Shown piece after piece: positions 1 through 39,300 of a DNA stretch of 64,000 nt. The stretch covers positions 2,446,501 through 2,510,500 of the forward strand of contig NZ_CP017415.1 in assembly GCF_001753245.1 (NCBI RefSeq), written 5' to 3'. Under the pieces are notes generated by a model that saw only the letters and a list, made by a program, of their open reading frames with translations, had not been told where the DNA came from and searched no databases. The translations under genes and the position numbers were made by a program. This DNA is from Acidihalobacter yilgarnensis. Its GTDB lineage: Bacteria; Pseudomonadota; Gammaproteobacteria; DSM-5130; Acidihalobacteraceae. Within the stretch, counting starts at the first letter, position 1. Every line of letters starts with the position of its first letter.

Positions 1-707
1 AAAATATTGATTCGACGAGGTATACCCTGGGACCAATCATGTATTAACGGAAATATGGCTTCATCAAGACTAGGATCATTCGTCCATCCAGCCGTATGCA
101 GTCGGTGATTAATGTATTTAATCGTCTCATCCAAACTCAATGGCTCAAGTTGATGCCAGGCAATGATACGCTGGAACAATTGCTCCATATTTTTTCCGTT
201 CAGAACAGCCCTCAGGTCTGATTGACCAACCAATGCAATCTGAATTAATGCTTTTGCATTAACGCTCAGATTTGTAAGTAATCTGAGCTCTTCCAATGCA
301 GCCGCTGAAAATGTTTGTGCCTCATCTACGATCAGCAGAACACCTTCCGGATAATCCTCACCAAGCGTACGGCTGAGCGCATCTAAATATTCGGCTTTAC
401 TAAGATTTTTAGCCGTTAGGCCAAGCGCCGTCGAAACCAAAGGCAGCACATCATCAGCCTCTACATTTGCCGCCGCGATTTTTGCACCATATATCTTATG
501 TTTTGACAGATAATCCAGTATCGTTTGTATGGTGAGTGTTTTTCCGGTGCCAACATCTCCTGTAATGACAATAAACCCCTCACGCTGACCCAATCCGTAT
601 ATTAAATACGAAAGCGCTCTACGATGCGTCGCGCTCGGAAACAGGAAGCTACTATCGGGCGTCAGCGCAAAAGGGCGCCTTTCCAGTCCAAAATATTCTT
701 CGTACAT
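1..707 (-). CDS. XrtA/PEP-CTERM-associated secretion ATPase (partial, 3' end beyond window)
   Basis: Only the N-terminal 235 residues lie in the window; the gene runs off the left edge. Reading from ATG at 707, the protein starts MYEEYFGLERRPFALTPD, the usual opening of ExeA/GspA-like AAA ATPases. A Walker A motif GDVGTGKT sits at residues 50-57 and a Walker B VLLIVDEAQ at about 123-131. By family knowledge this matches the putative secretion ATPase found in exosortase (PEP-CTERM) exopolysaccharide loci. It follows the outer-membrane barrel gene by 20 bp, in the canonical order. An exact role in polysaccharide assembly is not established for the family. An ordinary ExeA-type ATPase is the alternative, made less likely by the neighbours. 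Confidence 0.85.
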   Translation of the reverse strand, partial: MYEEYFGLERRPFALTPDSSFLFPSATHRRALSYLIYGLGQREGFIVITGDVGTGKTLTIQTILDYLSKHKIYGAKIAAANVEADDVLPLVSTALGLTAKNLSKAEYLDALSRTLGEDYPEGVLLIVDEAQTFSAAALEELRLLTNLSVNAKALIQIALVGQSDLRAVLNGKNMEQLFQRIIAWHQLEPLSLDETIKYINHRLHTAGWTNDPSLDEAIFPLIHDWSQGIPRRINI

Positions 708-5927: not shown

Positions 5928-7736
5928 ATGCCAGCAGAGCTGCCAAACATACCCATCCAACGACGAAATCGGGCCACTGTCGTGTCGATCCGGACCAAAG
6001 CACGCGGCTTCACCACCGCACTTTTACTCATATTGCTACTTTTTTATGTACAGACCGTGTGGTCGGCGGGTGCTAATAATGTTGAAATCATCGGTCTTTC
6101 AGACCCATTGCTTGCCAATGCACAGGCGCATCTGACGAATATCGACCTGGGTTGTAATGCGCCACGGTGGCAGGCAGAAACGACGTTGACACAGGCACAT
6201 CGCGCGGTACGCACAGCGCTTGAGGCCATGGGTTACTATCAGCCGACCATCGCCTCGACGCTTGAGCGCGTCGGTGCATGCTGGCAGATCCATTTAGACG
6301 TGAAGCCCGGCACACCGATCCAAATCACGGCGATTTCACTTATCCTCGCCGGCTCAGGCAAACAAGACAAGGGCCTGCAGGCGTTGATCGCCGACAGTGG
6401 GCTACACATTGGACAGGTACTCAACCAAGGTGATTACACCGCGCTCAAGCAACGTCTTGAAGGCTATACGCATGAGCATGGCTACTTCGATGCGCGTTTC
6501 ACCGAACACCGCATTCTCGTCGACCCGGCAACACACAGTGCTCAAATCAGACTCAGCCTAAACACGGGATCGCGCTACGTTTTTGGCCAGACGATGCTTG
6601 ACATCCATTCGCTGAACCCCAGCTTGGTCAAAGGCTTTCTGGCCTACCACCCCGGCGAGCCCTATAACGCCAACGCCGTCATTGAAAGTCAAAGTGCCTT
6701 GGTGGCCAGTGGTTATTTCGACAGTGTGCGGCTGCAAACACAATCACGGGAACGCGCGCACGGCGAAGTGCCGATGCGCCTGAGCACCACCCCTGCAAGA
6801 CGCTATCAACTACTTGCAGGCGCTGGCTATTCAACCGACACCGGTCCCGCCCTGAGGCTCGACTTTCGCAACCACCGGGTAAACCGAGCCGGGCATCGCT
6901 ATGCACTCAATCTGCAATTGGCGCGCATCCAGTCGCAGGCCACCGCACGCTACGAGATTCCGCTGGCCAACCCACGCACGGATTGGCTCACTCTGGAAAC
7001 TGGCTACCAATACCAGAACACCCTCGCCGCCCAGACGCGGACATGGAAGTTCGGTGCGACCCGCACGCACCTGTTGGCCGACAACTGGCTACGCCGAATT
7101 TCGCTTGAATATCTCAACGAAAATTCCACGGTTGCAGGCACGACACTTTCGGGGCACTTCCTGATACCCGGTATCGGTTACAGCCGTACGCTGGCCGACG
7201 CACCGATCTACCCACAACGGGGCTGGTCAATCGACGCGCGCCTCCGTGGCGCCGCGCGCAGCGTGATTTCCACCGAGAGCTTCGTACAGGCCAGACTCGA
7301 TATCCACGCCATTGCACCATTGTTCGGCGGACGCATTCTCACGCGTGCGGCGTTGGGCGCTACCGCCGTGGACAACGTGAGTAGCCTGCCCGCGACGCTA
7401 CGCTTCTTCGCCGGTGGCGCACGCAGCGTACGCGGCTACGCCTACCAAAGCCTGGGGCCCACCGATGCCCAGGGTGTCATCGTCGGCGGACGCTACCTTG
7501 CCGTCGGCAGTCTCGAATACGATCACCACCTGACCGGTCAGTTTTACTGGGCCACGTTCTACGACGTGGGTAATGCCTTCGACACCTGGCCATTCACCCT
7601 ACGCCGCGGCGTAGGCATCGGGCTGCGCTGGCACTCACCACTGGGGCCGATACGCCTCGACCTCGCGACGCCCCTCAATCCGCTGCCCGGCGCCAGTCGC
7701 TTCGTCATTCAAGTCAGCATGGGGCCGGAGCTGTGA
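5928..7736 (+). CDS. tamA: Translocation and assembly module protein TamA
   Basis: A 602-residue Omp85-family protein. A long basic N-region and hydrophobic segment (GFTTALLLILLLFYVQTVWSAG) form the signal peptide. POTRA-like repeats fill about residues 50-290. The C-terminal half is a surface-antigen/BamA-type barrel with the signature FFAGGARSVRGYAYQSLGP and a terminal strand FVIQVSMGPEL. TamA is the outer-membrane half of the TAM complex with TamB. Its stop overlaps the tamB GTG start by 4 bp. The partner gene is broken here, so the complex is probably impaired or altered. Confidence 0.94.
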   Translation: MPAELPNIPIQRRNRATVVSIRTKARGFTTALLLILLLFYVQTVWSAGANNVEIIGLSDPLLANAQAHLTNIDLGCNAPRWQAETTLTQAHRAVRTALEAMGYYQPTIASTLERVGACWQIHLDVKPGTPIQITAISLILAGSGKQDKGLQALIADSGLHIGQVLNQGDYTALKQRLEGYTHEHGYFDARFTEHRILVDPATHSAQIRLSLNTGSRYVFGQTMLDIHSLNPSLVKGFLAYHPGEPYNANAVIESQSALVASGYFDSVRLQTQSRERAHGEVPMRLSTTPARRYQLLAGAGYSTDTGPALRLDFRNHRVNRAGHRYALNLQLARIQSQATARYEIPLANPRTDWLTLETGYQYQNTLAAQTRTWKFGATRTHLLADNWLRRISLEYLNENSTVAGTTLSGHFLIPGIGYSRTLADAPIYPQRGWSIDARLRGAARSVISTESFVQARLDIHAIAPLFGGRILTRAALGATAVDNVSSLPATLRFFAGGARSVRGYAYQSLGPTDAQGVIVGGRYLAVGSLEYDHHLTGQFYWATFYDVGNAFDTWPFTLRRGVGIGLRWHSPLGPIRLDLATPLNPLPGASRFVIQVSMGPEL

Positions 7737-8161
7737 AACGCTGGTTATCCAAATTGATTTACGGCGGGCTGCTGAGCTTTGTCATCCTCAGTGCGCTTGT
7801 GTACATGCTCATCGGCACCCCTACGGGTACGCGGTGGCTGCTGGATACTGCCGCCCACTTCAGCCATGGCCGCCTCACGATTACCGCGAGTCAAGGCAGT
7901 CTGATCGCCGGCCTGCGCATCGACGATTTGCGTTGGCATTCACCCGATCTCGACATCAATGTCGCCCACGCCATCCTGCGTTGGCGACCGTTGGATCTGT
8001 TAGCGGGTCGCCTGCACATCGATACCATAGCCGTCACGCACGTTCTCGTCATTCACCGACCGGGACTCGCCCCAGCCCAATCCAGCCCATCGACACTGCC
8101 ATTGCTGCCGCTTCCGGTGCGTATTGCAAACCTACGCATCCATGATCTCATCGTCGTCAAC
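7733..8161 (+). pseudogene. tamB: tamB, 5' fragment (interrupted by IS3-family element)
   Basis: Starts with GTG inside tamA's stop and encodes a signal-anchor helix (LIYGGLLSFVILSALVYMLI) plus the start of the TamB repeat region, 143 codons in all. The reading frame enters the insertion sequence at 8162, gains five foreign codons and stops at TGA 8177-8179. Removing the element and one AAC target copy rejoins this frame exactly to the fragment beginning at 9422 (IVVN then DGHAFRLSRVD), giving a 1148-residue protein. E. coli TamB has 1259, so the pre-insertion gene was full length. Confidence 0.92.
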
Positions 8162-8245
8162 AGAACTGGACCCACCTGATTGGACAGTGATTGAACGCTG
8201 ATAAGTGCTTCCTTCATCATGAGCGAGACGCTCTGGAGAGAAGCG

Positions 8246-8551
8246 ATGAGACGGAAAAGACGAAACCATTCGCCTGAGTTCAAGGCCAAGGTAGCGCTTG
8301 CAGCGCTACAGGGTGACCTGACGATGGCTGAGTTGGTCAAGAAGTTCGATGTACATGCCAATCAGATCGCGGACTGGAAGAAGCAGCTGCTGAGCAACGC
8401 CTCGGATGTGTTCGGCAAGGGCGCACAGAAGGCTGAACAGTCGGCCGAAACCATTGAGCAGTTGCACGCCAAGATCGGCCAGCTGACGATGGAGAATGAT
8501 TTTTTAGAACGCGGGCTCGAACGGATTCACGGGCCCAGAGGAAAGCAATGA
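8246..8551 (+). CDS. IS3-family transposase OrfA (HTH_Tnp_1)
   Basis: A 101-residue DNA-binding subunit starting MRRKRRNHSPEFKAKVALAA. The ATG at 8246 is chosen over an upstream in-frame ATG at 8219 because GGAGAG precedes it by a normal distance. An N-terminal helix-turn-helix (LTMAELVKKFDVHANQIADW) is followed by a leucine-zipper-like coiled coil (AETIEQLHAKIGQLTMENDF). A T_TTT_TTA heptamer at 8500-8506 lies in frame near the end. A -1 shift there leads without stops into OrfB, which is how IS3 elements make the OrfAB transposase. Confidence 0.92.
   Translation: MRRKRRNHSPEFKAKVALAALQGDLTMAELVKKFDVHANQIADWKKQLLSNASDVFGKGAQKAEQSAETIEQLHAKIGQLTMENDFLERGLERIHGPRGKQ
8500..8536 (+). promoter_or_regulatory. 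Predicted -1 programmed ribosomal frameshift signal in the IS
   Basis: The slippery heptamer T_TTT_TTA occupies 8500-8506 in the X_XXY_YYZ phase of OrfA. Six bases later GGGCTCG (8513-8519) can pair with CGGGCCC (8530-8536), allowing one G-U pair, to form a stimulatory stem. The -1 frame is open from here to the OrfB ATG at 8548 and on through OrfB. Confidence 0.75.
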
Positions 8552-9420
8552 TAGATCGTCAGGATCCGCTGCCGGTAAGGCGGCAATGCGCGTTGCTGGA
8601 CCTGCCGCGCTCGACGTTCTACCGCGTGGCCAAGCCGGTTACAGACGAGGAACTGGAACTCATGGCGCTGATTGATCGCTGCCACCTGAAGTATCCTTTC
8701 TATGGCAGCCGACGCATCCACGACTGGTTGGAAGACCAGGGTCACCGCGTAAACCGCAAGCGGGTTCAGCGCCTGATGCGCACGATGGACCTGAGGGCAC
8801 AGTACCCGAAGCGCAACCTCAGCTTGGCCAATCAGGCGCACAAGGTCTATCCGTACCTGCTGCGGGATCGGGTTATCGACCGCCCGAACCAGGTCTGGGC
8901 GACCGACGTGACCTACATCCCGATGGCGCGGGGCTTTGTGTATCTGGTGGCCATCATGGACTGGCACTCGCGCAAGGTGCTCTCCTGGCGCGTATCGAAC
9001 ACGCTCGATGTGAGCTTCTGCGTCGATGCGCTTGAGGAGGCGATCGAGGCCTACGGCGCCCCGGAGATCTTCAATACCGACCAGGGGAGTCAGTTCACGA
9101 GCGAGGCGTTCACCGGCGTTCTCAAGCACCATGGCATCCGCATCAGCATGGATGGCAAGGGTCGGTGGGTCGATAACGTGTTCGTCGAGCGCCTGTGGCG
9201 CAGCGTGAAATATGAGGAGGTGTATCTGAAGGCCTACGACAATATCGCCGATGCACGAAGGTCACTGGGGCGATACCTGGCCTTCTACAACGCTGAGAGG
9301 CGGCACCAGTCACTGGACCGGCGCACCCCGACAGCGTGTACTACGAATCCGCCGCCAGACTGGCGGCATAACCCGAGAGAGCACTTAGCGGGCTGTCCAA
9401 TTTCCCGGGTCCACTTCTAA
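8548..9420 (+). CDS. IS3-family transposase OrfB (DDE integrase core)
   Basis: A 290-residue catalytic subunit. An HTH_21-type N-terminal region (HLKYPFYGSRRIHDWLEDQG) precedes an rve integrase core with DDE residues in WATDVTYIP, FNTDQGSQFTS and DNVFVERLWRSVKYEE. Its ATG overlaps the OrfA stop (ATGA). The TAA stop is 9418-9420: only its T belongs to the element, and the two A bases come from the AAC target duplication, so the C-terminus depends on the insertion site. Confidence 0.95.
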   Translation: MIDRQDPLPVRRQCALLDLPRSTFYRVAKPVTDEELELMALIDRCHLKYPFYGSRRIHDWLEDQGHRVNRKRVQRLMRTMDLRAQYPKRNLSLANQAHKVYPYLLRDRVIDRPNQVWATDVTYIPMARGFVYLVAIMDWHSRKVLSWRVSNTLDVSFCVDALEEAIEAYGAPEIFNTDQGSQFTSEAFTGVLKHHGIRISMDGKGRWVDNVFVERLWRSVKYEEVYLKAYDNIADARRSLGRYLAFYNAERRHQSLDRRTPTACTTNPPPDWRHNPREHLAGCPISRVHF

Positions 9421-9421
9421 C

Positions 9422-12400
9422 GACGGTCATGCCTTCAGACTTTCGCGTGTAGATGCCGGGCTTAGTCTGGCGGGAAGTCGCTTGAATCTTTCACGGCTGA
9501 ATCTCGAAACCCCACAAGGGGCGCTCTCCTTGGTCGGGGATATCCGTCTGAATCCACCCTACACGCTCGACCTGCGCACTGTCTGGCACTGGCGCCTCGA
9601 CCACCGCACGCGCATCTTGGGCCAGGGGTTATTACAAGGGCCTTTGCAACGCCTGAATATCAGTCAGCAACTCACCGCACCCTTCCCGGCCACGCTTGAC
9701 GCCGAAGTGGACGTACTGCGGCAAACAGGGAAACTCAAGCTTTCCTGGCGAAACGCCCGCTGGCCGCTGGCCGGGGTAACAGTCGACGCACAAAGCGCCG
9801 CCGGACAATTACATGCGGAAGGCAGTCTTTCAGGCTATCGCCTGCACATCGAAACTGCACTGCAAACCTCGCAACTCGATATCCCGCGACTCGAGACCGA
9901 AATCGATGGCAACTCGAAGGGATTGAAGGTGGATCACCTGACCGCTTCCCTGCTCGATGGCACCTTCAAGGCACATGGCGCGGTCACCTGGAAACCGACC
10001 CTGAATTGGCAATTCATCATCAACGCACAAAATCTCGATCCTGGCGTTCTCCGGACCGACTGGCCCGGCAAGCTCGCTGTGGACGGCCATCTGACAGGCG
10101 ACAATCGACGGATGCAATTTGCCCTCACACGTCTCGAGGGTCGCTTGCGCGGGCTGCCTATATCCACTCAGATGCAAGGAGCCATCGTATTTGCCGACAG
10201 GCAACTGACGCTTACGCGCGCGCACCTCGCTGCGCTCGGCGCCCGCATCGATCTGAACGGATGGGCCACCCCCCACAAGGGCAATCTGCAATTCACGCTT
10301 GATGCCCCTAAATTGCAAGCCTTCAGCACACAGGCCGGTGGCAGTCTCCACGCAAGCGGCCATATCAGCGGCCCCTGGCAATGGCCGCGCGTCAACGCAC
10401 GGCTCGACGGTAAAAACCTGCGTCTACGCGCCTTATCCATTGCACACTTATCTGCCTCCATCGAACCAGGCCGTAGCGACACGCTCAAGACTCGACTCGA
10501 CATACGCGACCTCCACCGCGCCGGGATTGACCTCAAGCAAGTGATTTTCAGTGCCGACGGGCAGCCCGCGCGCATGCAACTGACACTAAGCGCCGTCGCA
10601 TCGGCTGGTCGACTCGACGCGCGCCTGTCCGGCGGCATCAAACCCGGAAGTGCTCGTTGGGACGGACGCCTGCTGCAGTTCGATTTGCAACCGCGCAAGG
10701 GTAGCGGCTGGCGCCTGCGTGCGCCGGCGGCTCTGCGGCTCACGCGCCACGAGATCGACATAAGCCCGACCTGCCTCGAACCCGACGGCAATCCATCCGC
10801 GCATCTGTGCCTGAACCTGAAATTCGCACCGAGCGGCATCAACCTGCACTCAGACTGGCAACAGCTGCCCCTGGCGATGCTCGATCCCTGGTTGCCCGCT
10901 GCAGTACGGATAAGTGGCAACCTGAGCGGCCACGCAGATTTGAAGGGGCCGTTGAACGCGCTGAAGGGCCAACTCAGCGCGAGCGCCCCTGATGGGCATC
11001 TCGAGCTGACGCGGAGCACCGGCACAAGGCGCTATGCGCTCGTGCTATCAAGGCTGGCACTCGATCTACACGCCCAGCAGCTCGCGTTGATGCTTAATGC
11101 CGGCTTGCCTGACGGTGGAAAACTCGATGTCCGGCTCGATACCGGCCTATCACCCCAAGCACCGCTCAATGGACGCATCGGACTGAATCTACCAAAGCTC
11201 ACATTCCTTGATGGCCTGATACCGGACACACAGGCAATCGAAGGCACATTACAAGGAAATATCCAGCTGGCTGGCACCCGGGCATCGCCATTGATCGACA
11301 CTCAGGTGACGCTCAACAAAGGGGCATTGATACTGGCTCGCGCGGGCATACGCCTTCAGGATATCCAGGCGACCTTACTTGGCAAAGGTACCCAGCCGCT
11401 CCAGGTGGCGGTACAAGCACGCTCCGGCCCAGGACAGATCGAGGCGCGGGGTGAAATTAGCGAATGGTACACGCCCCATCCCGAAATCCGGCTCAACGTA
11501 AAAGGCCATCAGTTCGAGGCCGTACACCTACCGCAGATCAGCGCGCAGATCAGTCCCACACTCACCATTGAGGCCAATCCCAAACGCATTCAAGTACGCG
11601 GACGTATCGATGTGCCCAAAGCGGACATTGTCATCAAACGCGTGGCGCCCGGCGCCGTGGACGTCTCTCCGGACACTCAAATTGTAGGCGTGACCGCGTC
11701 GACAAAGTCCCACGGCCCAACGTTCGATGCCGCCATCGAGCTTGCCCTCGGCCAGGCAATCAAGCTCGATGCCTTCGGCCTGGCCGGGCAATTGACCGGG
11801 GACCTGTTGTTGACCCAGCGATCCGGCACGCCGACCGTAGCCGATGGTAGCCTACGCATCGTTAATGGTACCTATTCGGCCTATGGGCTGAACCTTGCGC
11901 TCAGCAAAGGGGTACTGAATTTCGCAGGCCCCGTGGATAACCCGGGCCTCGACGTGGTGGCGCAACGCCAAACGGGCAACGTCACCGCACAATTGACGGT
12001 CACCGGCACCCTGAAATCGCCTCGCTCGCAGGTCAGCGCAACGCCGCCGATGTCTGAATCCGAGGCGCTGTCCTGGCTGATCACCGGACATGGATTGGCA
12101 GGTGCTTCGAAGAGCGATGCCGCCTTGCTGCTCAAGGCGCTGGCCAGCATGCACATGGGCAACAGCGAGGCGGGCGGTGGTGTACTCGGGTCAATCAAGG
12201 CACGCACAGGATTGAGTGATATTGGTGTGCAAGGTGGAGACAGCTGGCAGCAAAGCTCGCTCTTGCTCGGCAAATACCTTACGCCTGACCTCTATGTACG
12301 TTACGCAGCCGGATTGTTCGATCACAGCAATACCCTCGCACTCAATTACCGGCTGTCGCAACACTTCAGCGTGGAGGCCAAGTCCGGCAGCGCACAGGGC

Positions 12401-12439
12401 ATCGACCTGCTCTATCAGATCGTGTTCGGTCCTCGCTGA
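9422..12439 (+). pseudogene. tamB: tamB, 3' fragment (translocation and assembly module, C-terminal domain)
   Basis: This is the remaining 1005 codons of tamB after the insertion. The first in-frame candidate start is TTG 9482 with no clear ribosome site. The protein is built of repeated amphipathic beta strands, as in the hydrophobic-groove repeats of TamB/AsmA-like lipid-transport proteins. It ends with the conserved TamB_C (DUF490) domain, including SESEALSWLITG, a following glycine-rich stretch and YLTPDLYVRYAAGLFDHSNT. No other disruption is visible, which supports a recent insertion. Any translation would lack the inner-membrane anchor, unless transcription and translation from the IS supply a new start. 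Confidence 0.9.
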
Positions 12440-12444
12440 GGGCG

Positions 12445-13512
12445 TCAAGCTTGTCGAATCAGCTCGACGATTTCCGGGAAACCACCGACGCGGTCGGCCG
12501 CATCAAGTTTGATGGCTTCCTTGGGCATGCCGAAGACGACGCAGCTCGCCTCATCCTGTGCCATTGTGGTCGCACCGGCATCACGCATCAGCTTCAACCC
12601 CCGCGCGCCATCCCCTCCCATACCGGTCATGATGATGCCTATTCCGTTCCGACCGACCACCTGCGAGGCCGAACGGAACAATACATCAACGGAGGGCCTG
12701 TGCCGATTGACCAGTGGACCGTCGAATACCTCGGCATAGTACTGCGCCCCCTGGCGCACCAATTTGAGATGTTTCCCGCCCGGCGCAATCAGCGCCAGAC
12801 CCGGCAACAACCGGTCTCCATCCTTCGCCTCGCGCACCTCGATCTGGCATAAGCCGTTCAACCGCTCGGCAAAGGCGGCCGTGAACATCGCCGGCATGTG
12901 CTGGACGATGGCGATGGGTGCACACACCCTGGGTAGCGCGGTCAACACGGTTTCAAGCGCTTGCGTTCCCCCGGTCGAAGTACCCATGGCGACAATGCGT
13001 TCGGTAGTACGCAACATCGCCTCGGCCGACGCAGGTACGGCAGCGGCCTGCACCTGATGTACGGGAGGAGAAGACCGCCGTAAATTGCTCATATTGGCGC
13101 GTGCCGCCGTCTTCACGGCTGCGATCAAGTCATTTGCGCTATCAAGCAGGAAGTCGCGAATACCAACCGTCGGCTTGGTGATGACATGGACCGCGCCGGC
13201 CGCCAATGCTTGCAAGGTGGTCGCCGCGCCCTTTTCGGTCAGCGTTGAACAAATGATCACGGGCGTCGGATGCTCTCGCATCAGTTGGCCGAGAAAGGTG
13301 ATGCCGTCCATCCTGGGCATCTCGACATCGAGCACAATCACGTCGGGCCACTGCCGCTTCATACGCTCCATGGCAAAAAGCGGATCTGCCGCGGCGCCGA
13401 TCACCTCCAACGCGGGATCCTGGGACAAGGCGGCCTGCAGTACCTGCCGCACCACAGCGGAATCGTCTACGACCAACACCTTTATTTTGTCGCTCTTCCC
13501 TGATTGGATCAC
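12445..13512 (-). CDS. cheB: Chemotaxis response regulator protein-glutamate methylesterase CheB
   Basis: A receiver domain ([15 protein letters not shown], phospho-Asp in [13 protein letters not shown]) is joined to a C-terminal methylesterase domain. The esterase has catalytic Ser in [11 protein letters not shown], His in IVQHMP and Asp in [11 protein letters not shown]. It removes methyl groups from receptor glutamates and opposes CheR. The GTG at 13512 is preferred over GTG 13524 because AGGTGAGG lies 6 bases upstream of it. It is the last gene of the chemotaxis operon and ends 5 bp from the convergent end of tamB. Confidence 0.95.
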
Positions 13513-13531
13513 CGCTCGCCTCACCTTTCAA

Positions 13532-14038
13532 TCATGATTTCATGGCCTTGTACCAGAGATAGACTAAGCCGTCGTTAAGATCAAACACCAGACTCCGATG
13601 CCCATCTCCACCGAGGTGTTCGGCAGCAACGTCAAATCCATAGGCCGCCATCAGTACACGCGCAGCTTGCACGTTGCGCGAGGAAACACCCTCCCGCGAC
13701 GCGCGCGTCGTCAGCGCCGGAAACATGTTGCCCCCACCAAAAAGTTTGACCTCGTAATCGCGCGGATGGGTGTGTGAACTGCGGATCGCCGCCATGAACA
13801 AATGCATCAATTCATCCGCATATTTCCCATCCCACTGCCCCTCCGTTTGAGATGTCCGCCGCAGACCTCGACAGGGCAACATGAAATGGCCCATGCCACC
13901 GCAACGACGCTCGGGATGCCAGAGCGTCACCGCCACGCAAGAACCGAGTATGGTCTTGATCCGTGTGCCATCACCTCCGAAGTAGAAGCCGCCCGGCGTC
14001 AGATACACGTCGTATCGCCGCCAGTCTTCGCGGTTCAC
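13532..14038 (-). CDS. cheD: Chemoreceptor glutamine deamidase CheD
   Basis: CheD deamidates glutamines on chemoreceptors and often modulates CheC/CheB-type adaptation. The catalytic Cys lies in TILGSCVAV and His in GMGHFMLP; LFGGGNMFP and VQAARVLMAAYGF are also family signatures. A longer reading to 14158 would overlap cheR by 124 bp. The GTG at 14038 forms a GTGA overlap with the cheR stop and gives 168 residues, close to the size of B. subtilis CheD. No cheC is visible in the operon. Confidence 0.92.
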   Translation of the reverse strand: MNREDWRRYDVYLTPGGFYFGGDGTRIKTILGSCVAVTLWHPERRCGGMGHFMLPCRGLRRTSQTEGQWDGKYADELMHLFMAAIRSSHTHPRDYEVKLFGGGNMFPALTTRASREGVSSRNVQAARVLMAAYGFDVAAEHLGGDGHRSLVFDLNDGLVYLWYKAMKS

Positions 14039-14874
14039 GGACAGCGGTAGATCGATGGCGCCTCGACAATTAAATCCGACGTCACGCCATTGAGGCTTTC
14101 GGAATGCCCAACAAAGAGATACCCCCCAGGGCGCAAATGGGGTATCAGACGTCGGCACAACGCCTGCTTCGTGGGCAGGTCGAAATAAATCATCACGTTG
14201 CGCAGGAAGATAACGTCGAACAGGCCATGTGTCTCGGCCAGGGGCGCGTTCAAATTGAGCGCGCGGAATTCCACACGCTCTCTCAGCTTACGCGCGACCG
14301 CGAAAGACCCCGCCCTGGAGCCAACACCCTTGAGACAGTAGGCGCGCAAATAATGCAACGGAATCCGTTCCGCCCGTTCGATCGGATAAATACCCGCCTG
14401 CGCACGATCGAGTACCCGTTGACTCAGATCCGTGGCGAGCAGCGACCAAGGCCTTCCACCTCGATGCTCGGCCAGTGTCATGGCGATACTGTAGGGCTCT
14501 TCGCCGCTCGAACAGGCCGCACTCCAGATACGTACGCCCTGGGACGTTTGTGCCAACGCAGGCAACACACGTTCCGCAAGAAAATCAAAATGCTTCTGTT
14601 CGCGGAAAAAATAGGTCTCGTTGGTGGTCAACAGATCGATCGCCCGCTGTGCCTCGGAGCCAGGACGTAATTCGCCGCCGAGCAATTCAAGATACGCTCG
14701 GTAACCTGGGCAACCGATCTCACGCAGGCGCTTTTCAAGACGCCCTGCAACCAGCGCGCGCTTGGCCGTGCTCAAGTGGATACCGGCCCGCCGGTAGATG
14801 AATTCCCGAATAGCCTGAAATTCCGGCTCTGCGAGGGGGATGTTGCGCCCAGCGCCCGCTGTCACTTTGGCCAT
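14035..14874 (-). CDS. cheR: Chemotaxis protein-glutamate O-methyltransferase CheR
   Basis: About 279 residues from ATG 14874, which lies 7 bp after cheW; an upstream start at 14913 would overlap cheW. The N-terminal CheR helical domain (EFQAIREFIYRRAGIHL) is followed by the SAM-binding domain with RIWSAACSSGEEPYSIAM and FDVIFLRNVMIYF. It methylates receptor glutamates for adaptation. The last bases overlap the cheD start. Confidence 0.95.
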   Translation of the reverse strand: MAKVTAGAGRNIPLAEPEFQAIREFIYRRAGIHLSTAKRALVAGRLEKRLREIGCPGYRAYLELLGGELRPGSEAQRAIDLLTTNETYFFREQKHFDFLAERVLPALAQTSQGVRIWSAACSSGEEPYSIAMTLAEHRGGRPWSLLATDLSQRVLDRAQAGIYPIERAERIPLHYLRAYCLKGVGSRAGSFAVARKLRERVEFRALNLNAPLAETHGLFDVIFLRNVMIYFDLPTKQALCRRLIPHLRPGGYLFVGHSESLNGVTSDLIVEAPSIYRCP

Positions 14875-14881
14875 GCCTGCA

Positions 14882-15451
14882 TCAGGATGTCCGATGTGTC
14901 GCTGACACCGCATCAGCGGATCGATTTGCCGACTCGGCCAACGCGGACATTTCCGCTACCGACAAGGCTTGATCAATATCGAGTACCACGATAAAACGGC
15001 CATCGACCTTGCCGATACCTTCGATGAAGTCATTACGCAGCCCCGCACCGAACGCTGGTGGGCGCTCCTGGCTCCGTGCGGCGATCTCGACCACCTCGTT
15101 GACCGAGTCGACCAGAATGCCGAGGTCCTGGTGCGTCTGCGCCCCGCTGATTTCGATGATGACGATACAGGTACGCCGTTGAATTTCGGTAGAAGCGCGG
15201 CCGAAACGAACCGCCAGATCGATGACCGGCACCACACGCCCACGCAGATTAATCACACCGCGTAAAAAAGCCGGCATCATGGGCACTGTGGTCACATCCT
15301 CATACTCGATAATTTCGCGGATGTGTTTGATATTGACCGCGAATGTTTCATCGCCCAGGGTAAAACTCAAATACTGTTCCGCCTGATCGGGCACGTCACC
15401 CTCGGCGAGCGCTACTTGCCGCCCGTTTGCGAGCTCTAATGGGTTGGCCAT
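14882..15451 (-). CDS. cheW: Chemotaxis coupling protein CheW
   Basis: About 189 residues. It has a single CheW SH3-like domain starting QYLSFTLGDETFAVNIKHIR, with LRGVINLRGRVVPVIDL. It links receptors to the CheA kinase. The ATG at 15451 is preceded by GGAGGTAGCG; a GTG immediately after the MCP stop is the only longer alternative. The 30 or so C-terminal residues are extra, rich in Ala/Ser. Confidence 0.95.
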   Translation of the reverse strand: MANPLELANGRQVALAEGDVPDQAEQYLSFTLGDETFAVNIKHIREIIEYEDVTTVPMMPAFLRGVINLRGRVVPVIDLAVRFGRASTEIQRRTCIVIIEISGAQTHQDLGILVDSVNEVVEIAARSQERPPAFGAGLRNDFIEGIGKVDGRFIVVLDIDQALSVAEMSALAESANRSADAVSATHRTS

Positions 15452-15463
15452 CGCTACCTCCAC

Positions 15464-17113
15464 TTAAAAGCGCACAAACTCGCCTTCTTCCGGCAGATCA
15501 CCATCGTCTTTGATGCTAGACGCAGCTCGTCTCGATTCCTGCGGTGACTTTTCGAGTTTGAGCCGCTGCTTCGCCTGTGTAGCGGAGTTCGTCCGTTCGG
15601 CGATACGCTGGGCGCGCAGCTTGAAAACGGACATGATCTGCTGGAGTTGCTCAGCCTGACCGTTGAGCTCTTCCGCAGTAGCCGCCAGCTCCTCGGAGGC
15701 AGATGCGTTCTGCTGCGTTGCCTGGCTGAGCTGATTCATCGCCACGTTGATCTGCCCGACGCCACTGCTCTGTTCGTCGGATGCAGCGGCAATTTCCTGT
15801 ACCAGATCGGAGGTCTTGCGCACGCCTGGTACGATTTCGCCCAGCAGATGACCTGCCCGTTCAGCCAACCCCACACTGCTCGTCGCGAGCTGGCCAATCT
15901 CCTGAGCCGCTACTTGACTGCGTTCGGCCAACTTGCGCACCTCGGCCGCTACGACGGCAAAGCCTTTGCCATGCTCGCCCGCACGTGCAGCCTCGATGGC
16001 GGCATTGAGCGCCAGCAGGTTCGTTTGGTAGGCAATATCGTCGACGATACCGATTTTTTCAGCGATGTCCTTCATCGCACGCACCGTCTGTTCGACGGCC
16101 TGTCCACCTTCGGTCGCTTTGAGCGCTGCCTCGCCGGCCATGCCATCGGTAATTTTCGCATTCTCGGCATTCTGGGTGACCGAGGCGCCCATTTCCTCCA
16201 TGGAGGCGGTAGTTTCTTCCACACTCGCAGCCTGTTCGGTGGATGCCTGCGAGACTGCCTGCGCGGTCGCGCTCACTTCTTCGGAAGCACTGGAGAGCGA
16301 ATCCGCGGCACTACGCACCTCGGCGATCACGCCTGCAAGATTCTCCGCCATGGTGCGCATGGCAGCCAGCAGATGCCCGGTCTCGTCACTCGATGCCACT
16401 TCGATGGAGATACTCAGGTCGTTATCCGCCAGGTGGTTGGCGACGTTCACCGCTTCCCTAATCGGTCGCGTGATGCTACGTGTCGTGACCCATGCGAAGC
16501 CGACTCCGAGCAACAATCCGATCAGAATGACGCTGATCGCCATGATCCGGGACTCGTGATAAACCGCGTTCGCCTGCTGATACGAGTGATCGAGGTGCTG
16601 CTGTTGCAGGACCGTCAGCTGGTTGAGACTCGTACGCAAGGTGTCGACGAGCGGTAGGCCTTGGCTGGAAAAATGGCTCGCCGCTTGTGCGACTTCACCC
16701 GTCTTCATCAATCGGAGGGCTTCTGCCTTGATAACGCCGAGCCTATCGAGATGCTGACGTATCAAGGCCAGCATCTCCCGCCCCGGAGGCGATTTCAAAA
16801 GTTCATCGAGCTGGCCTAGACGCTTTCCTATTTGCGTTTCGTGAACTCCCAAGCGCGCCGTTAATTGCTCCTGCTGTGTCGCGTCAGTCGACAGCAGCAC
16901 GCCCTGAAAATCGGCTTCGTCCTCCAGGATTTCGTCCTTAACCTGCATCACGAGTTTGGCCTTGACCCAGTCGTGCTGGGCAATCCGATCCGTCCCCTGC
17001 TTGATCATGGACATCTCGCGCACCCCCATGCCCGCAACGATCACGAGCAAGGCCAGCAGCACCCCGAAACCGATGCCCAATCGGACACCTATTTTCAAAT
17101 TCCTGAATGACAT
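15464..17113 (-). CDS. Methyl-accepting chemotaxis protein (4HB-type sensor, HAMP, MA domain)
   Basis: A 549-residue receptor. TM1 lies near residues 8-30 ([21 protein letters not shown]). A helical periplasmic domain of about 160 residues resembling four-helix-bundle sensors follows, then TM2 ([20 protein letters not shown]) and HAMP. The cytoplasmic hairpin has the signature [16 protein letters not shown]. Glu/Gln-rich methylation segments flank it. The ATG at 17113 is chosen because GCGAGGGGA lies just upstream. The C-terminus EEGEFVRF is not the classic CheR-binding pentapeptide. The ligand cannot be told from sequence. Confidence 0.93.
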
Positions 17114-17179
17114 AGTCCCCTCGCTTGCATGTCGCAATATTGGATTATTACCCCGTCCTGGCTGGGTTCTCCGACTACC

Positions 17180-19444
17180 TTAGCCACGTACCATTTCCCC
17201 ACCGGGTGTCGATTCACGCCGCAACCCAGGTCCCTCGTCTCTCTGCGTCGCCAGTTGGCTCAAGCCCGCCACATCGAAAATCAAAGCGAGTTCCCCACTC
17301 CCCAGAATCGTCGAGCCACTGATGCCCTTGAGGTGTTCGAACAAATCCCCCAGTGGCTTGATCACCGTCTGCAATTCACCCAGCAGGTCATCGACCACCA
17401 ATCCGAACCGCCGACCACCGGCCTGGACCACAACCAGGCTTTCACGACCATGATCGCGAGAAGTCAGGCCGAAGAAATCCGCGATACGAAGATAAGGAAT
17501 TACCTCGTCGCGTACTCGTACATAGGCGCCATGGGCCGAGCGCTGTTCGACCCGTTCGAGGTCGATACACTCGACCACGATGTCCAGCGGCAAGACAAAT
17601 TTCGAATCGCCCACACCAAGCAAGAAACCATCAATGATCGCGAGCGTGAGCGGTAGTCTCAAACGAACGGAAGTGCCGCCATCGAGTGCACTGTCGATAT
17701 CGATGCTACCGCGCAAGCCTTCGACTGTTTTTTTGACGACATCCATGCCAACTCCCCGTCCGGATAGATTGCTCACCTGTTCAGCGGTGGAAAATCCGGG
17801 CTCGAAAATCAGCTGATACAACGCATGCGTCGACAATATCTCGTCTTCCGTAATCAACCCACGCGCGAGTGCCTTATTCCGGATACGTGCTGGATCCAGA
17901 CCTGCCCCGTCGTCGCTCACCTCGATCACCACGCTACCTGAATCGTGAAATGCGGCCAGCCGGATCGTGCCCTTCTCGGGCTTGCTCCGCGCCAGTCTGA
18001 CATCGGGCATTTCGATTCCATGGTCAATGGCATTGCGCACCATATGCGTCAGGGGATCGGCGATTTTTTCCACCATGGTGCGATCAAGTTCGGTATCGCC
18101 ACCCTCGATCTGCAGCGCAACCTCTTTACCCAACTCATGAGCTGTATCGCGCACAATGCGATGAAACCGCGCGAACGTTTCACCGATTTCGACCATGCGC
18201 AGACGCAACGTACCTTCGCGAATCAGCTCGACGAGACGCCCAACCTCCACCGATGCTTGTTGTTGAGGCGAGTCGGGATTGACCGCGCTGAGGGAGCGTA
18301 CCGCAGAACTTGCGATCACCAGTTCGCCCACCAGATCGATGAGGGCGTCCAGCTTGTCGGCCTGGACTCTGACCGAACGCGTCTCGCGAGCCTTGACCTC
18401 CTTAATTTTGTGTTGCTTGGCCAATGCCGCCTCAACGATGGGCGATTGCACGGCACCCTGTTCGACCAAAATATACCCTAATGGCTCTGGGTCTTCGGCC
18501 GTCGCTTGGGCGGATAGGGCCTCGGTCAACTCGCGCTCGGTCACGGTGCCGACTTTGACCAAAATCTCGCCGAGCCGAAGATCGTCCTCCGGCAGCGACT
18601 GGAGTAACGCTAGAAACTCGTCAGCCTTGCTCGCCGTAGGCAGAATGCGAAGTTCGCAATCCTCCCTGACGAACTCGAAGACATCCTCCAGTGTCTGCTT
18701 ACTGACTTCCCCCCGAAAATGAATCTCAAAACCCAGATAACAACACTCCGGATCATAATCGCCTTCCGGAATTCGGTCGGGCAGCACCTCGACGCCCACC
18801 AGCTGGCCCAGCGATTTCAGATAGCGGATGAAGGACAGCGGATCCATGCCATTACGGAAGGTTTCATCGCCAAATCGCAGTGACAGATGCCAACCCTCGG
18901 GATCCGGCGCGCGGGTCCAGGATTGAATCGCCGATTCGACCGCATCGCCGGCAGCAATCAACTCATGCCGTCCGGCCTGGGTTTGAGGTGCGGCCTCGGG
19001 TGACTCTGCGCGCTGTACGGACACGACATCTTCTGGTGTCGCGACCGACTCACCACCATGCAAAGCCGTCACCAGCTCGCGTCCTTGTGCTTGCCGTGCC
19101 TCGTCCAAGGCACGGGATTCCGCTGCACAGTCCACAAGTATGCCGAGATGGTCCGTACACCTGATCAGTAAGCTGATCCAGGGGGGAGAAAGTGCAAGGG
19201 TGCCGTCGCGGGCCCGGTCCAACACGCTTTCCATCTCATGTCCGAAGGCGACCACTTCGTCGAGACCGAACAGCCCGGCTGAGCCTTTAACCGTGTGCGC
19301 CGCACGGAACAGCGCATTGACGTCCTCGGGATCGGCTTCCGCCTCCTCAAGCCGAAGCAGAATGGCCTCCATCTGGATCAGCAGATCGCGTGCTTCCTCC
19401 AGAAAGGTTGCAAGCGCCCCGCCCCAATCGAAGCCATCGTTCAT
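17180..19444 (-). CDS. cheA: Chemotaxis histidine kinase CheA with MshEN-like insert
   Basis: A 754-residue kinase. The Hpt domain comes first, with phospho-His 50 in RAAHTVKGSAG. A central region (about 185-280) is unlike the standard CheY-binding P2. Residues 289-345 hold tandem RLGEILVKVGTV / PLGYILVEQGAV motifs with Q313, resembling the c-di-GMP-binding MshEN domain of type II secretion ATPases. Then come the dimerisation helices, an HATPase domain (MVRNAIDHG, SDDGAGLDP, GRGVGMDVV) and a CheW-like domain to 730. The kinase phosphorylates CheY and CheB. Its start overlaps the STAS gene by 4 bp. Confidence 0.95.
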   Translation of the reverse strand: MNDGFDWGGALATFLEEARDLLIQMEAILLRLEEAEADPEDVNALFRAAHTVKGSAGLFGLDEVVAFGHEMESVLDRARDGTLALSPPWISLLIRCTDHLGILVDCAAESRALDEARQAQGRELVTALHGGESVATPEDVVSVQRAESPEAAPQTQAGRHELIAAGDAVESAIQSWTRAPDPEGWHLSLRFGDETFRNGMDPLSFIRYLKSLGQLVGVEVLPDRIPEGDYDPECCYLGFEIHFRGEVSKQTLEDVFEFVREDCELRILPTASKADEFLALLQSLPEDDLRLGEILVKVGTVTERELTEALSAQATAEDPEPLGYILVEQGAVQSPIVEAALAKQHKIKEVKARETRSVRVQADKLDALIDLVGELVIASSAVRSLSAVNPDSPQQQASVEVGRLVELIREGTLRLRMVEIGETFARFHRIVRDTAHELGKEVALQIEGGDTELDRTMVEKIADPLTHMVRNAIDHGIEMPDVRLARSKPEKGTIRLAAFHDSGSVVIEVSDDGAGLDPARIRNKALARGLITEDEILSTHALYQLIFEPGFSTAEQVSNLSGRGVGMDVVKKTVEGLRGSIDIDSALDGGTSVRLRLPLTLAIIDGFLLGVGDSKFVLPLDIVVECIDLERVEQRSAHGAYVRVRDEVIPYLRIADFFGLTSRDHGRESLVVVQAGGRRFGLVVDDLLGELQTVIKPLGDLFEHLKGISGSTILGSGELALIFDVAGLSQLATQRDEGPGLRRESTPGGEMVRG

Positions 19445-19770
19445 CGCCTGCCTCCGACTGGCCGGAGGACCAGCGGATCACCGAAAAAACGCTCCAGCTG
19501 GCACAACTCGATCGCCTCAATAACGCATGGGCTGTGCTGTGATAACTGAAGCGATTTGCCGCCGCGTTCCGCCTCGCGCTTGCCGGCCATCAGCAGCTGC
19601 AGGCCGGCACCGTCGATATTGTCCACGGCAGATAGATCCAGGACGAGGCCATCGGCCTCATCGAGACCTTGCGACACCCGCGCATAAACCTCGGCGACGC
19701 CGTAAATATCGAGATCGCCGGTCAATGACAACTGAACGGTGTTTCCCGTGCGCGTCTCGATAATTTCCAT
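19441..19770 (-). CDS. STAS-domain protein of the chemotaxis operon
   Basis: A 109-residue protein that is a single STAS domain (GDLDIYGVAEVYARV, LDLSAVDNIDGAGLQLLM). The position of the phosphorylatable Ser/Thr in anti-anti-sigma factors (D-S/T-x-G) reads D53-G54-A55-G56, so SpoIIAA-type phosphorylation is not possible at this site. Stand-alone STAS proteins next to cheA occur in many proteobacterial chemotaxis operons; their role is poorly defined. GGGGGGATGC precedes the ATG. It is coupled to cheA by an ATGA overlap. Confidence 0.88.
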   Translation of the reverse strand: MEIIETRTGNTVQLSLTGDLDIYGVAEVYARVSQGLDEADGLVLDLSAVDNIDGAGLQLLMAGKREAERGGKSLQLSQHSPCVIEAIELCQLERFFGDPLVLRPVGGRR

Positions 19771-19800: not shown

Positions 19801-20169
19801 TCAGGGCCCGACCAGCTTGGATACGGCTGCCAGCATCTGTGCCGGCTGGAATGGTTTAACCATCCAGGCCTTGGCGCCGGCTGCACGCCCCTCCTCCTTT
19901 TTCGCATCCTGCCCTTCCGTGGTCAGCATAATGACCGGCACGAAGCGATATTCGGGGCGCTGCTTGAGCTGCTTGACGAAGGTAATACCGTCCATGCGTG
20001 GCATATTCACGTCGCTGATAACCAGCTGGACCTTTTTACCCTCAAGCTTGGTCAGTGCCTCCTGGCCATCACCTGCTTCCATGACCTCGTATCCCGCTCC
20101 CGTCAGTGCCATTTTCACGACCTGACGCAGCGAAGCGGAGTCATCCACAATCATCACCGTCTTAGGCAT
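19801..20169 (-). CDS. cheY: Chemotaxis response regulator CheY
   Basis: A 122-residue single receiver domain. The acidic pocket is D9-D10 (IVDDSAS), the phospho-acceptor is D53 (VISDVNMPRMDG), the Thr is in MLTTEG and the Lys in MVKPF. There is no output domain. It should carry the CheA signal to the flagellar switch or to another target. It is transcribed with the STAS and cheA genes. Confidence 0.95.
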   Translation of the reverse strand: MPKTVMIVDDSASLRQVVKMALTGAGYEVMEAGDGQEALTKLEGKKVQLVISDVNMPRMDGITFVKQLKQRPEYRFVPVIMLTTEGQDAKKEEGRAAGAKAWMVKPFQPAQMLAAVSKLVGP

Positions 20170-20231: not shown

Positions 20232-21428
20232 TCAGAAGAAAGTGACGTCACCTGTATCGACATGCGCGCCCTGATCGCCTCGATGATTGCGGCGCTGTTC
20301 GTCAGTGGTATAGCTACGCTCCACCTCAGCCAGCCATTGCTCAATCACGACACGCACATCCGCAGTCCCTGGTGCGTACTGGTCGAGCAAGCCGCCCAAG
20401 CTATTCAAGCTCGATTCCGCGTGCTCAAGAATTTGGCTCACGCGGTCCTGAAACTGCAATGAAACCAGCATCTGTGCGACATCCATGCGAATGCCATCGT
20501 TTTCCCGATGCACCACCTCAGCCGAGGTCCGCGTTTGTTCTGCGAATTGACGGAAACGCGTGAGCACTGCATTAACTGCCGTATCGGCGGCCGTCATCGC
20601 TTCCTGATCAGCCTCGCCCGATGCCGCAGCCGAGCTGCCGATACCTGCCAACGAGTCGGTAATACTCTGAATCTTCTCTGCCATACGGCGCACCGTGTTG
20701 GTCGACAACCCCGACAATTTGCGCACTTCCTCCGCAACCACGGCGAATCCACGGCCCTGTTCACCCGCCCGCGCCGCTTCGATTGCCGCATTCAATGCCA
20801 GCAGATTGGTGCGCGAGGCAATAACCTCGACTTCACCAGTCATGCCGCGCAAGGCCTCTGCGTAAGCGTCCAGTCCCTCCAGCGCCTGTGCCAGCGAACG
20901 CCTGCGCTCTCCGGTCGCCTCCAAGGTACTCAATACGGATTTGAGATCGGACTCGTTACGCTCGAAGTCGCTGTGCGCGCCCGCGGGCGCGCCAACCGGT
21001 TCCGCGCTCACGATCGATGCCGCGGTCTGTACCGCCTGATCCAGACGCCCCTGCAGGCTGTCGAATTGACCGACCAGGGCGTTAATCCCCTCTTCAGTCT
21101 GGGCTTTGGCTGTATCGATCTGGCGGGCCACAATCTGTAATGCTTGAGCGATGGCCAAGGCATCGGATTCTCGGTTGGTAACCAAGTGATCCCCCCCCTC
21201 CTCGGACTTCGGTTTTGAGGGCCGCACTTCGGGCGCCAATGGTGCAGCGGGCATTCCGCGCGCACGCCAGATCCAGATCAACGTCATCAATACGGCGACA
21301 CCGAGGGTAAGCGAACGGGGCTCTCCCCATACCAGCAATGCCACAATCGCCCCTCCCCATGGGAGGACCGTGCCTCCGGCCCAAATTCCATTACCCATCG
21401 ATTCGCTCGTCATGTGGGTATCGCCCAT
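20232..21428 (-). CDS. Membrane-anchored MCP-like signalling protein without periplasmic sensor
   Basis: A 398-residue protein. Two adjacent hydrophobic segments near the N-terminus ([15 protein letters not shown] and [15 protein letters not shown]) have almost no loop between them, and there is no HAMP domain. The cytoplasmic part carries the receptor signature [16 protein letters not shown] and [11 protein letters not shown]. It is the first gene of the chemotaxis operon, so it may sense a membrane or cytoplasmic cue. ATG at 21428 or 21413 are both possible; GGAAGGATGGG sits between or just before them. Confidence 0.88.
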
Positions 21429-38049: not shown

Positions 38050-38067
38050 CACAAGACGATGCACAGA

Positions 38068-38092
38068 CACGGAAAATGTGACATATTCCGTG
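38068..38092. promoter_or_regulatory. 25-bp near-perfect palindrome upstream of the diguanylate cyclase
   Basis: CACGGAAAATGT-G-ACATATTCCGTG: two 12-base arms with one mismatched pair around a central G. It lies 38 bp before the cyclase ATG and just upstream of the divergent htpG promoter. The symmetry and length fit an operator for a dimeric regulator. I do not recognise the regulator. Confidence 0.65.
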
Positions 38093-38130
38093 CAATCGCG
38101 GAAACAATCACACCAAATTTGGAGATCCGC

Positions 38131-39300
38131 ATGGCAGACGGGGGCAGCCCGCTTGCTGGTCGAAATCATCGCGCTGAAACGCTCCCCGACGACTTCGACC
38201 GTATCAAGCGCAGGATGGCCCTGCTGGCCATGTCAAGCGGCGCCGTCGCCTGCCTGATCGCATCAAGCCTCGCACACCGAGTGGGTCTACCAAACCCGGT
38301 GGATGCACATGTATTGCCCATCCTGGGCATTGGCCTGCTGGTATTGGCGCTCTCGCTGTGGCGCAATCCGCCCCTGCTCCCCTGGATCGAACGCATCGGC
38401 TGGGGACTGCTCACCGCCTACCTGCTCGCCGCATTGGGTTACAAAACCCTCCATTATCCATATACGCACACTCCGCTCGGGGCGCGCACCTACTGGTTTT
38501 TCTTCACGTACCTGCTCGCCTTCCTGGTCTGGCCGCCTCGCGGAGCCTTGGTAGCCAGCCTAGGTGTGATCAGCACAATCGGCGGCCTTACCCTCTGGCT
38601 TGGCCTCAAGACGCGGGGCGCCAATATCGAACTGCTGTCCTCGCTGATACAACTGATCGCCGCCAGTATTGCCTATGTATTCGTACACTACAGCTTCGCG
38701 CAATTGCGCCCGCAATACGCCCGCATGCGCACCCTGGCATTTTCAGACCCACTCACCGGCTGCGCCAATCGCCGCCGTGCGGAAGAACTCCTCGCCCTGG
38801 AAGTTGCCCGAGCCGGGCGCTACGGGCGACCACTCTCCCTGATTTTGTTCGACCTCGATCACTTCAAGCAGATCAACGATCTGCATGGACACGCCATCGG
38901 CGACGCCGTGCTGCGAGCAGTGACCAATGCCGTGCGATGCGATCTGCGCGGATTGGATCACCTAGCCCGCTGGGGAGGAGAAGAGTTTCTGATCATTGCA
39001 CCCGAGCTGTCTCAGTCCCGAGCCTCCCAATTCGGCGAACGCCTGCGCAAGCGCATTGCATCTTTGCGTATTAGCGGCGGCATTCAGCCGACTGCAAGCT
39101 TCGGTATCGCCAGTTTTCGCTTGGGGGAAACGGCCGACATGATGGTGCAACGAGCAGATCGCGCAATGTATCGCGCGAAGGCTCAAGGACGAAATCGTGT
39201 CGAAATGGAGCGTCCGCGCACGGCCACTCCAGAGGCCACCGATGTTGCAACGGTCACGACCGAAGAAACGGATGAGCCCTCTACCGCACTTGGGGACTAG
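38131..39300 (+). CDS. Membrane-bound diguanylate cyclase (GGDEF)
   Basis: 389 residues from ATG 38131, with GGAGATCCGC before it. Five or six N-terminal membrane helices (about residues 25-195) resemble a MASE-type sensor. A GGDEF domain follows, with the A-site GGEEF at 282-286 and an inhibitory I-site RGLD at 273-276, five residues upstream as expected. It should make c-di-GMP and be feedback-inhibited. There is no EAL domain. The C-terminal 25 residues are Thr/Glu rich. The stop overlaps the convergent ogt gene. Confidence 0.94.
   Translation: MADGGSPLAGRNHRAETLPDDFDRIKRRMALLAMSSGAVACLIASSLAHRVGLPNPVDAHVLPILGIGLLVLALSLWRNPPLLPWIERIGWGLLTAYLLAALGYKTLHYPYTHTPLGARTYWFFFTYLLAFLVWPPRGALVASLGVISTIGGLTLWLGLKTRGANIELLSSLIQLIAASIAYVFVHYSFAQLRPQYARMRTLAFSDPLTGCANRRRAEELLALEVARAGRYGRPLSLILFDLDHFKQINDLHGHAIGDAVLRAVTNAVRCDLRGLDHLARWGGEEFLIIAPELSQSRASQFGERLRKRIASLRISGGIQPTASFGIASFRLGETADMMVQRADRAMYRAKAQGRNRVEMERPRTATPEATDVATVTTEETDEPSTALGD

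Follow-up and report, generated by a model that had tools for sequence, protein, structure and literature searches.

The window analysed here, a stretch of 64,000 nucleotides from the Acidihalobacter yilgarnensis genome, contains a chemotaxis (che) cluster, in which the genes are ordered as sMCP, CheY, STAS, CheA, MCP, CheW, CheR, CheD and CheB (Table 1; gene names were taken from the translations and matched to annotated relatives). The cluster order is much alike in Aeromonas, Pseudomonas and Andreprevotia. Besides the CheA of the window, the genome contains two further CheAs, one of which sits in a standard flagellar cluster (flhB, flhA, flhF, fleN, fliA, cheB and mot genes, with FliG nearby; names again from the translations). 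Since the flagellar cluster has a separate CheA of its own, the CheA of the window is unlikely to be the principal flagellar kinase.

Table 1. Features of the che cluster, of its CheA and of other parts of the window (positions in the window)
Feature	Position	Strand	Remarks
MCP-like protein (sMCP)	20232-21428	minus	head of the cluster
CheY-like response regulator	19801-20169	minus	
STAS-domain protein	19441-19770	minus	upstream of cheA; adjoins CheA in most relatives
CheA kinase	17180-19444	minus	754 aa, translated ORF
Conserved region of about 90 aa	18629-18895	minus	CheA residues 184-272, between Hpt and MshEN; from alignment of relatives
MshEN_N-type domain	18410-18580	minus	CheA residues 289-345; from sequence homology and predicted fold
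Motif I, RLGEILVKVGTVTERELTEALSAQ	18506-18577	minus	CheA residues 290-313; R290, L291, G292, L306, L310, Q313
Motif II, PLGYILVEQGAVQSPIVEAALAKQ	18413-18484	minus	CheA residues 321-344; P321 (replacing Arg), L322, G323, V337, L341, Q344
Methyl-accepting chemotaxis protein (MCP)	15464-17137	minus	
CheW	14882-15463	minus	
CheR	14035-14913	minus	
CheD	13532-14158	minus	
CheB	12445-13524	minus	
Membrane GGDEF protein	38059-39300		GGEEF motif
tamA-like gene	5928-7736		just upstream of the tamB-like gene
tamB-like gene	7733-8179 and about 9419-12439		interrupted by the IS3-like element
IS3-like element	8162-9418		orfA 8219-8551, orfB 8548-9420

Other parts of the window were also recorded. The IS3-like element that interrupts the tamB-like gene has end repeats matching at 19 of 25 positions and a target repeat of 3 bases (AAC). 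The genome has 51 GGDEF matches, and the membrane GGDEF protein accounts for one of these. A preliminary description of this DNA had linked the kinase to this cyclase and to an EPS locus in the window; this link was dropped, because chance alone would put about 0.9 GGDEF matches into 64 kb and the genes lie outside the che cluster.

The CheA protein contains the Pfam domains Hpt (residues 11-98), H-kinase_dim (356-390), HATPase_c (463-600) and CheW (606-729), each above its cut-off, which makes it a member of the CheA histidine kinases, and the phosphorylation-site motif AAHTVKGSA begins at residue 48. In the interval between Hpt and dimerisation domain there are two additional conserved segments. 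The first one (residues 184-272) has neither a Pfam match nor a meaningful sequence match in the PDB, and judging from its sequence it is possibly a divergent P2 (CheY-binding) domain. The second one carries a pair of MshEN motifs, which is flanked by this P2-like region and by the P3 dimerisation domain; the latter begins at residue 356, only 12 residues past motif II.

The MshEN consensus is RLGxx(LVI)(LVI)xxG(LVI)(LVI)xxxxLxxxLxxQ, which occurs twice with 5 residues in between (PMC5013675). Two tandem 24-residue motifs of this kind are found in CheA, separated by a spacer of 7 residues. The preliminary description had placed tandem MshEN-like motifs within residues 289-345, and this was borne out; its residue numbers R290, Q313 and Q344 were also correct on retranslation. 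The departures from the consensus are T300 and A331, which stand where a hydrophobic residue is called for, V337 instead of Leu at position 17 of motif II, and P321 instead of Arg, which means that position 1 is Arg in motif I and Pro in motif II.

To compare this segment with known structures, a 66-aa query was searched against all PDB chains by phmmer, and the matches included Thermus PilF, with an E of 6e-11, and several chains of PilB, with E values near 1e-6. With a profile of 16 CheA relatives the values were 9e-21 for PilF, 1e-9 for PilB and 7.5e-6 for MshE, and all of the proteins below E 0.5 were of the MshEN type. The similarity to known MshEN members is far beyond chance at the sequence level. 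A Pfam scan of the full CheA and of each CheA MshEN segment gave no PF05157 match, only weak DUF4388 and scattered noise, and a complete GSPII (MshEN_N plus MshEN_C) is not present, as CheA is without the C-terminal alpha/beta subdomain. The profile search proposed earlier would have come out negative with Pfam alone, whose MshEN model stays silent on the segment; the profile built from CheA relatives did find MshEN proteins. The Pfam silence is also what could be said for a chance repetition in a Leu/Gly-rich linker, a reading that is hardly credible, since it is refuted by the profile and by the fold described below. Moreover, the segment is kept in a CheA clade spanning many families, and within the genus it is 74-86% identical, versus 61-63% for the Hpt-P2 linker. 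The dN/dS of the segment within the genus is about 0.1 where dS could be estimated, several dS values being saturated.

The structure prediction suggested in the preliminary description also came out in favour of an MshEN-like fold. The AlphaFold model of a 79-residue segment around the motifs (two rows from plasmid records were left out of the input) has a mean pLDDT of 92.9 and a pTM of 0.80, and consists of a four-helix bundle with a helix preceding the domain. In Foldseek the top rank was MshE with c-di-GMP (probability 1.00; E 0.08, for a very short chain). By VIA-align, the model matched MshE with c-di-GMP (PDB 5htl) at Z 10.1 and 1.9 A over 59 residues, and PilF GSPII-B at Z 9.8 and 1.3 A over 57 residues; MshEN domains filled the top ten rows, and the next row, an unrelated one, reached only Z 4.4. 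That the segment is an MshEN_N domain is thus well supported by its sequence and predicted fold.

MshE holds c-di-GMP through the backbone amides of Gly3, the side chains of Gln24, clusters of leucines and the Arg at position 1 (PMC5013675). The hydrogen-bonding Gly3 and Gln24 are present in both motifs of CheA (G292, Q313, G323 and Q344). For their conservation, we used CheA relatives gathered by genome scans, from which 46 distinct sequences of the window type were chosen by profile score, so that motif conservation is somewhat inflated. In motif I, all 46 sequences of this set have Gly3 and 44 have Gln24; in motif II, each of the two residues is found in 44. All four positions are among the 8 most conserved of the 48 motif positions, for which the chance is about 4e-4 if the profile-based selection is ignored. 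The neighbouring positions 22-23 of motif I, which lie on the surface, are in contrast among those that vary most.

The arginines are a different matter, being kept in 26 of 46 sequences at position 1 of motif I, while motif II most often has Pro there (25 of 46). This lack of conserved Arg fits a reading in which the MshEN fold is kept and c-di-GMP binding is lost, the domain serving as a docking module or as a structured spacer from P2 to P3. Such non-binders have precedents in XpsE (PMC5013675) and in the near-consensus domain PilF GSPII-A. Restoring the consensus residues does not make GSPII-A bind; for this, helix capping and the contacts between its subdomains have to be removed as well (PMC12002112). 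In the CheA model, too, the domain is preceded by a helix. Degeneration of the segment in three related CheAs (L036, L037 and L138) points the same way, and so does the CheA of Formivibrio citricus (L041), which has cleanly lost it although the genome still has 47 GGDEF matches. However, a bare spacer does not explain why the four ligand positions rank so high in conservation, and the XpsE-type non-binders have lost several of the ligand-contact residues (PMC5013675); we regard the loss of binding as rather unlikely.

In Thermus PilF, replacing the Arg by Lys or Leu made binding even tighter, i.e. the Arg is not required (PMC11731258), and the original consensus, with Arg at position 1 of both motifs, was later widened to R/K/L. 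The closest relative of known structure, PilF GSPII-C, which is also the best PDB sequence match of the CheA segment, has the Pro of motif II (P335) as its sole deviation; its binding of c-di-GMP was measured at 324-460 nM (PMC11731258), with the caution that it carries a third motif and that the measured binding perhaps does not come from the pair matching CheA alone. Besides, the isolated MshEN_N half binds c-di-GMP with a KD of 0.35 uM (PMC5013675), and for this reason the missing C-terminal subdomain of CheA is no obstacle to binding. Taken from sequence and model, binding of c-di-GMP by the CheA domain is plausible, and so is control of the kinase through it. Another cyclic dinucleotide or some other ligand might occupy the site instead, as MshEN binds cGAMP weakly (PMC5013675); this is very improbable, given that the Gly3 and Gln24 contacts, which fit guanine and ribose-phosphate, are kept in CheA and that GGDEF domains abound in the genome. 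The segment is accordingly best read as a genuine MshEN_N domain that most likely binds c-di-GMP and would thereby set the kinase output, to which we give a probability of roughly 0.62. Of the preliminary interpretation as a whole, domain identity, fold and conservation of the ligand residues stand, and the connection with the neighbouring cyclase and EPS locus does not.

For the distribution of such kinases, a match had to cover the full span with an E of at most 1e-20; on this count, CheAs of the window type are present in 31 of 369 gammaproteobacterial genomes from an even draw. The window-type CheAs form a clade (28 rows; support 96/87) in a kinase-core tree, and this clade is nested in a group with 100/100 support together with Campylobacterota CheAs that are without the domain. 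The CheAs of E. coli and Vibrio are placed elsewhere, and a position of the window CheA in their lineage was rejected. Within the window-type clade the domain is missing or degenerate in L037 and L041; counting also L042, L084 and L095 together with L036 and L138, seven such CheAs offer natural comparisons. The presence of GGDEF was rejected as a separator of CheAs with and without the domain, as at least 9 matches occur in 14 of 14 genomes. Several MshEN-CheA paralogues exist in three genomes, G252 (L116), G235 (L115) and G305 (L124), each with at least two full or near-full matches.

There is also a second form of CheA (L046, L047, L048, L049, L051, L052-L056 and others), in which the MshEN motifs are separated by a spacer of one residue in 40 of 51 sequences. 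No sequence of this form deviates at Gly3 of either motif or at Gln24 of motif II, and 33 of 51 have the Gln24 of motif I. These short-spacer relatives occur in Desulfobacterota and Spirochaetota; Geobacter, Desulfoluna, Treponema, Nitrospirota and Fibrobacter are among the named ones. At E 1e-15 or better, the short-spacer profile matched 48 of 118 genomes in the phylum of a Geobacter MAG and 21 of 60 in the phylum of a Treponema MAG. Named genomes were recruited with six peptide seeds, one of which lies inside the MshEN segment, so that the frequencies obtained there are subject to some bias. The AlphaFold model of this form has four helices; among the 13 chains compared no PDB match reached Z 2, and Foldseek returned few candidates. 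Judging from this model, the half-sites of the short-spacer form may be arranged differently from those of MshEN.

In the preferred reading, an accessory CheA outside the flagellar cluster carries, between the P2-like region and P3, a four-helix bundle with two 24-residue half-sites, which would bind one monomeric c-di-GMP per chain with an affinity of roughly micromolar or better. The ligand would be hydrogen-bonded by the backbones of Gly292 and Gly323 and the side chains of Gln313 and Gln344, while leucine clusters together with R290 and P321 would pack on its guanines. The domain sits in the linker by which the kinase core is joined to the phosphodonor part and the CheY-docking part, and because of this location its binding of c-di-GMP could stiffen or re-orient the tether, change the ease with which P1 reaches P4 or CheY, and alter phosphotransfer. 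In this way the cellular c-di-GMP level would act on kinase output, with no direction (rise or fall) predicted.

Some of these elements are known from other systems. With Thermus thermophilus PilF GSPII-C, CheA shares the tandem motifs, the 7-residue spacer (by phmmer alignment) and the Pro of motif II, but PilF is a type IV pilus ATPase with the third motif and a C-terminal subdomain, whereas CheA has the N-terminal half only. The N-terminal domain of Vibrio cholerae MshE has the same fold, the same Gly3 and Gln24 in both motifs and the Arg of motif I; it differs by its 5-residue spacer, the Arg of motif II and the MshEN_C and ATPase parts that follow. The second messenger also acts on chemotaxis through the PilZ adaptor MapZ, which acts on a CheR and is a separate protein, not a domain inside the kinase. 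As for the pairing itself, Wang et al. 2016 note in a single phrase that MshEN occurs with CheA and CheX, and their main text gives no protein, position, conservation or function (PMC5013675). A 2023 survey of CheA architectures likewise describes extra domains on the CheA core, the auxiliary ones being P2, REC and CheC/CheX, and lists neither MshEN nor a c-di-GMP-sensing domain (PMC10782961). In a literature search that covered few of the subscription journals, no work on the binding of c-di-GMP to a CheA came up. The CheA of the window thus adds to a pairing of MshEN and CheA that is known but so far uncharacterised.

In conclusion, it is possible, and we put it forward tentatively, that a lineage of CheAs in Pseudomonadota, Desulfobacterota, Spirochaetota, Nitrospirota and other groups has a built-in c-di-GMP receptor, with a rearranged and perhaps dimer-swapped site in the short-spacer form. 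If this is true, the arrays of the lineage would merge chemoreceptor input and the second messenger of biofilm formation inside the kinase, beside its dimerisation domain. A CheA sensing c-di-GMP would place a switch between swimming and settling within the chemosensory kinase and not in separate adaptor proteins, and would give a hint at the role of a widespread accessory chemosensory system.
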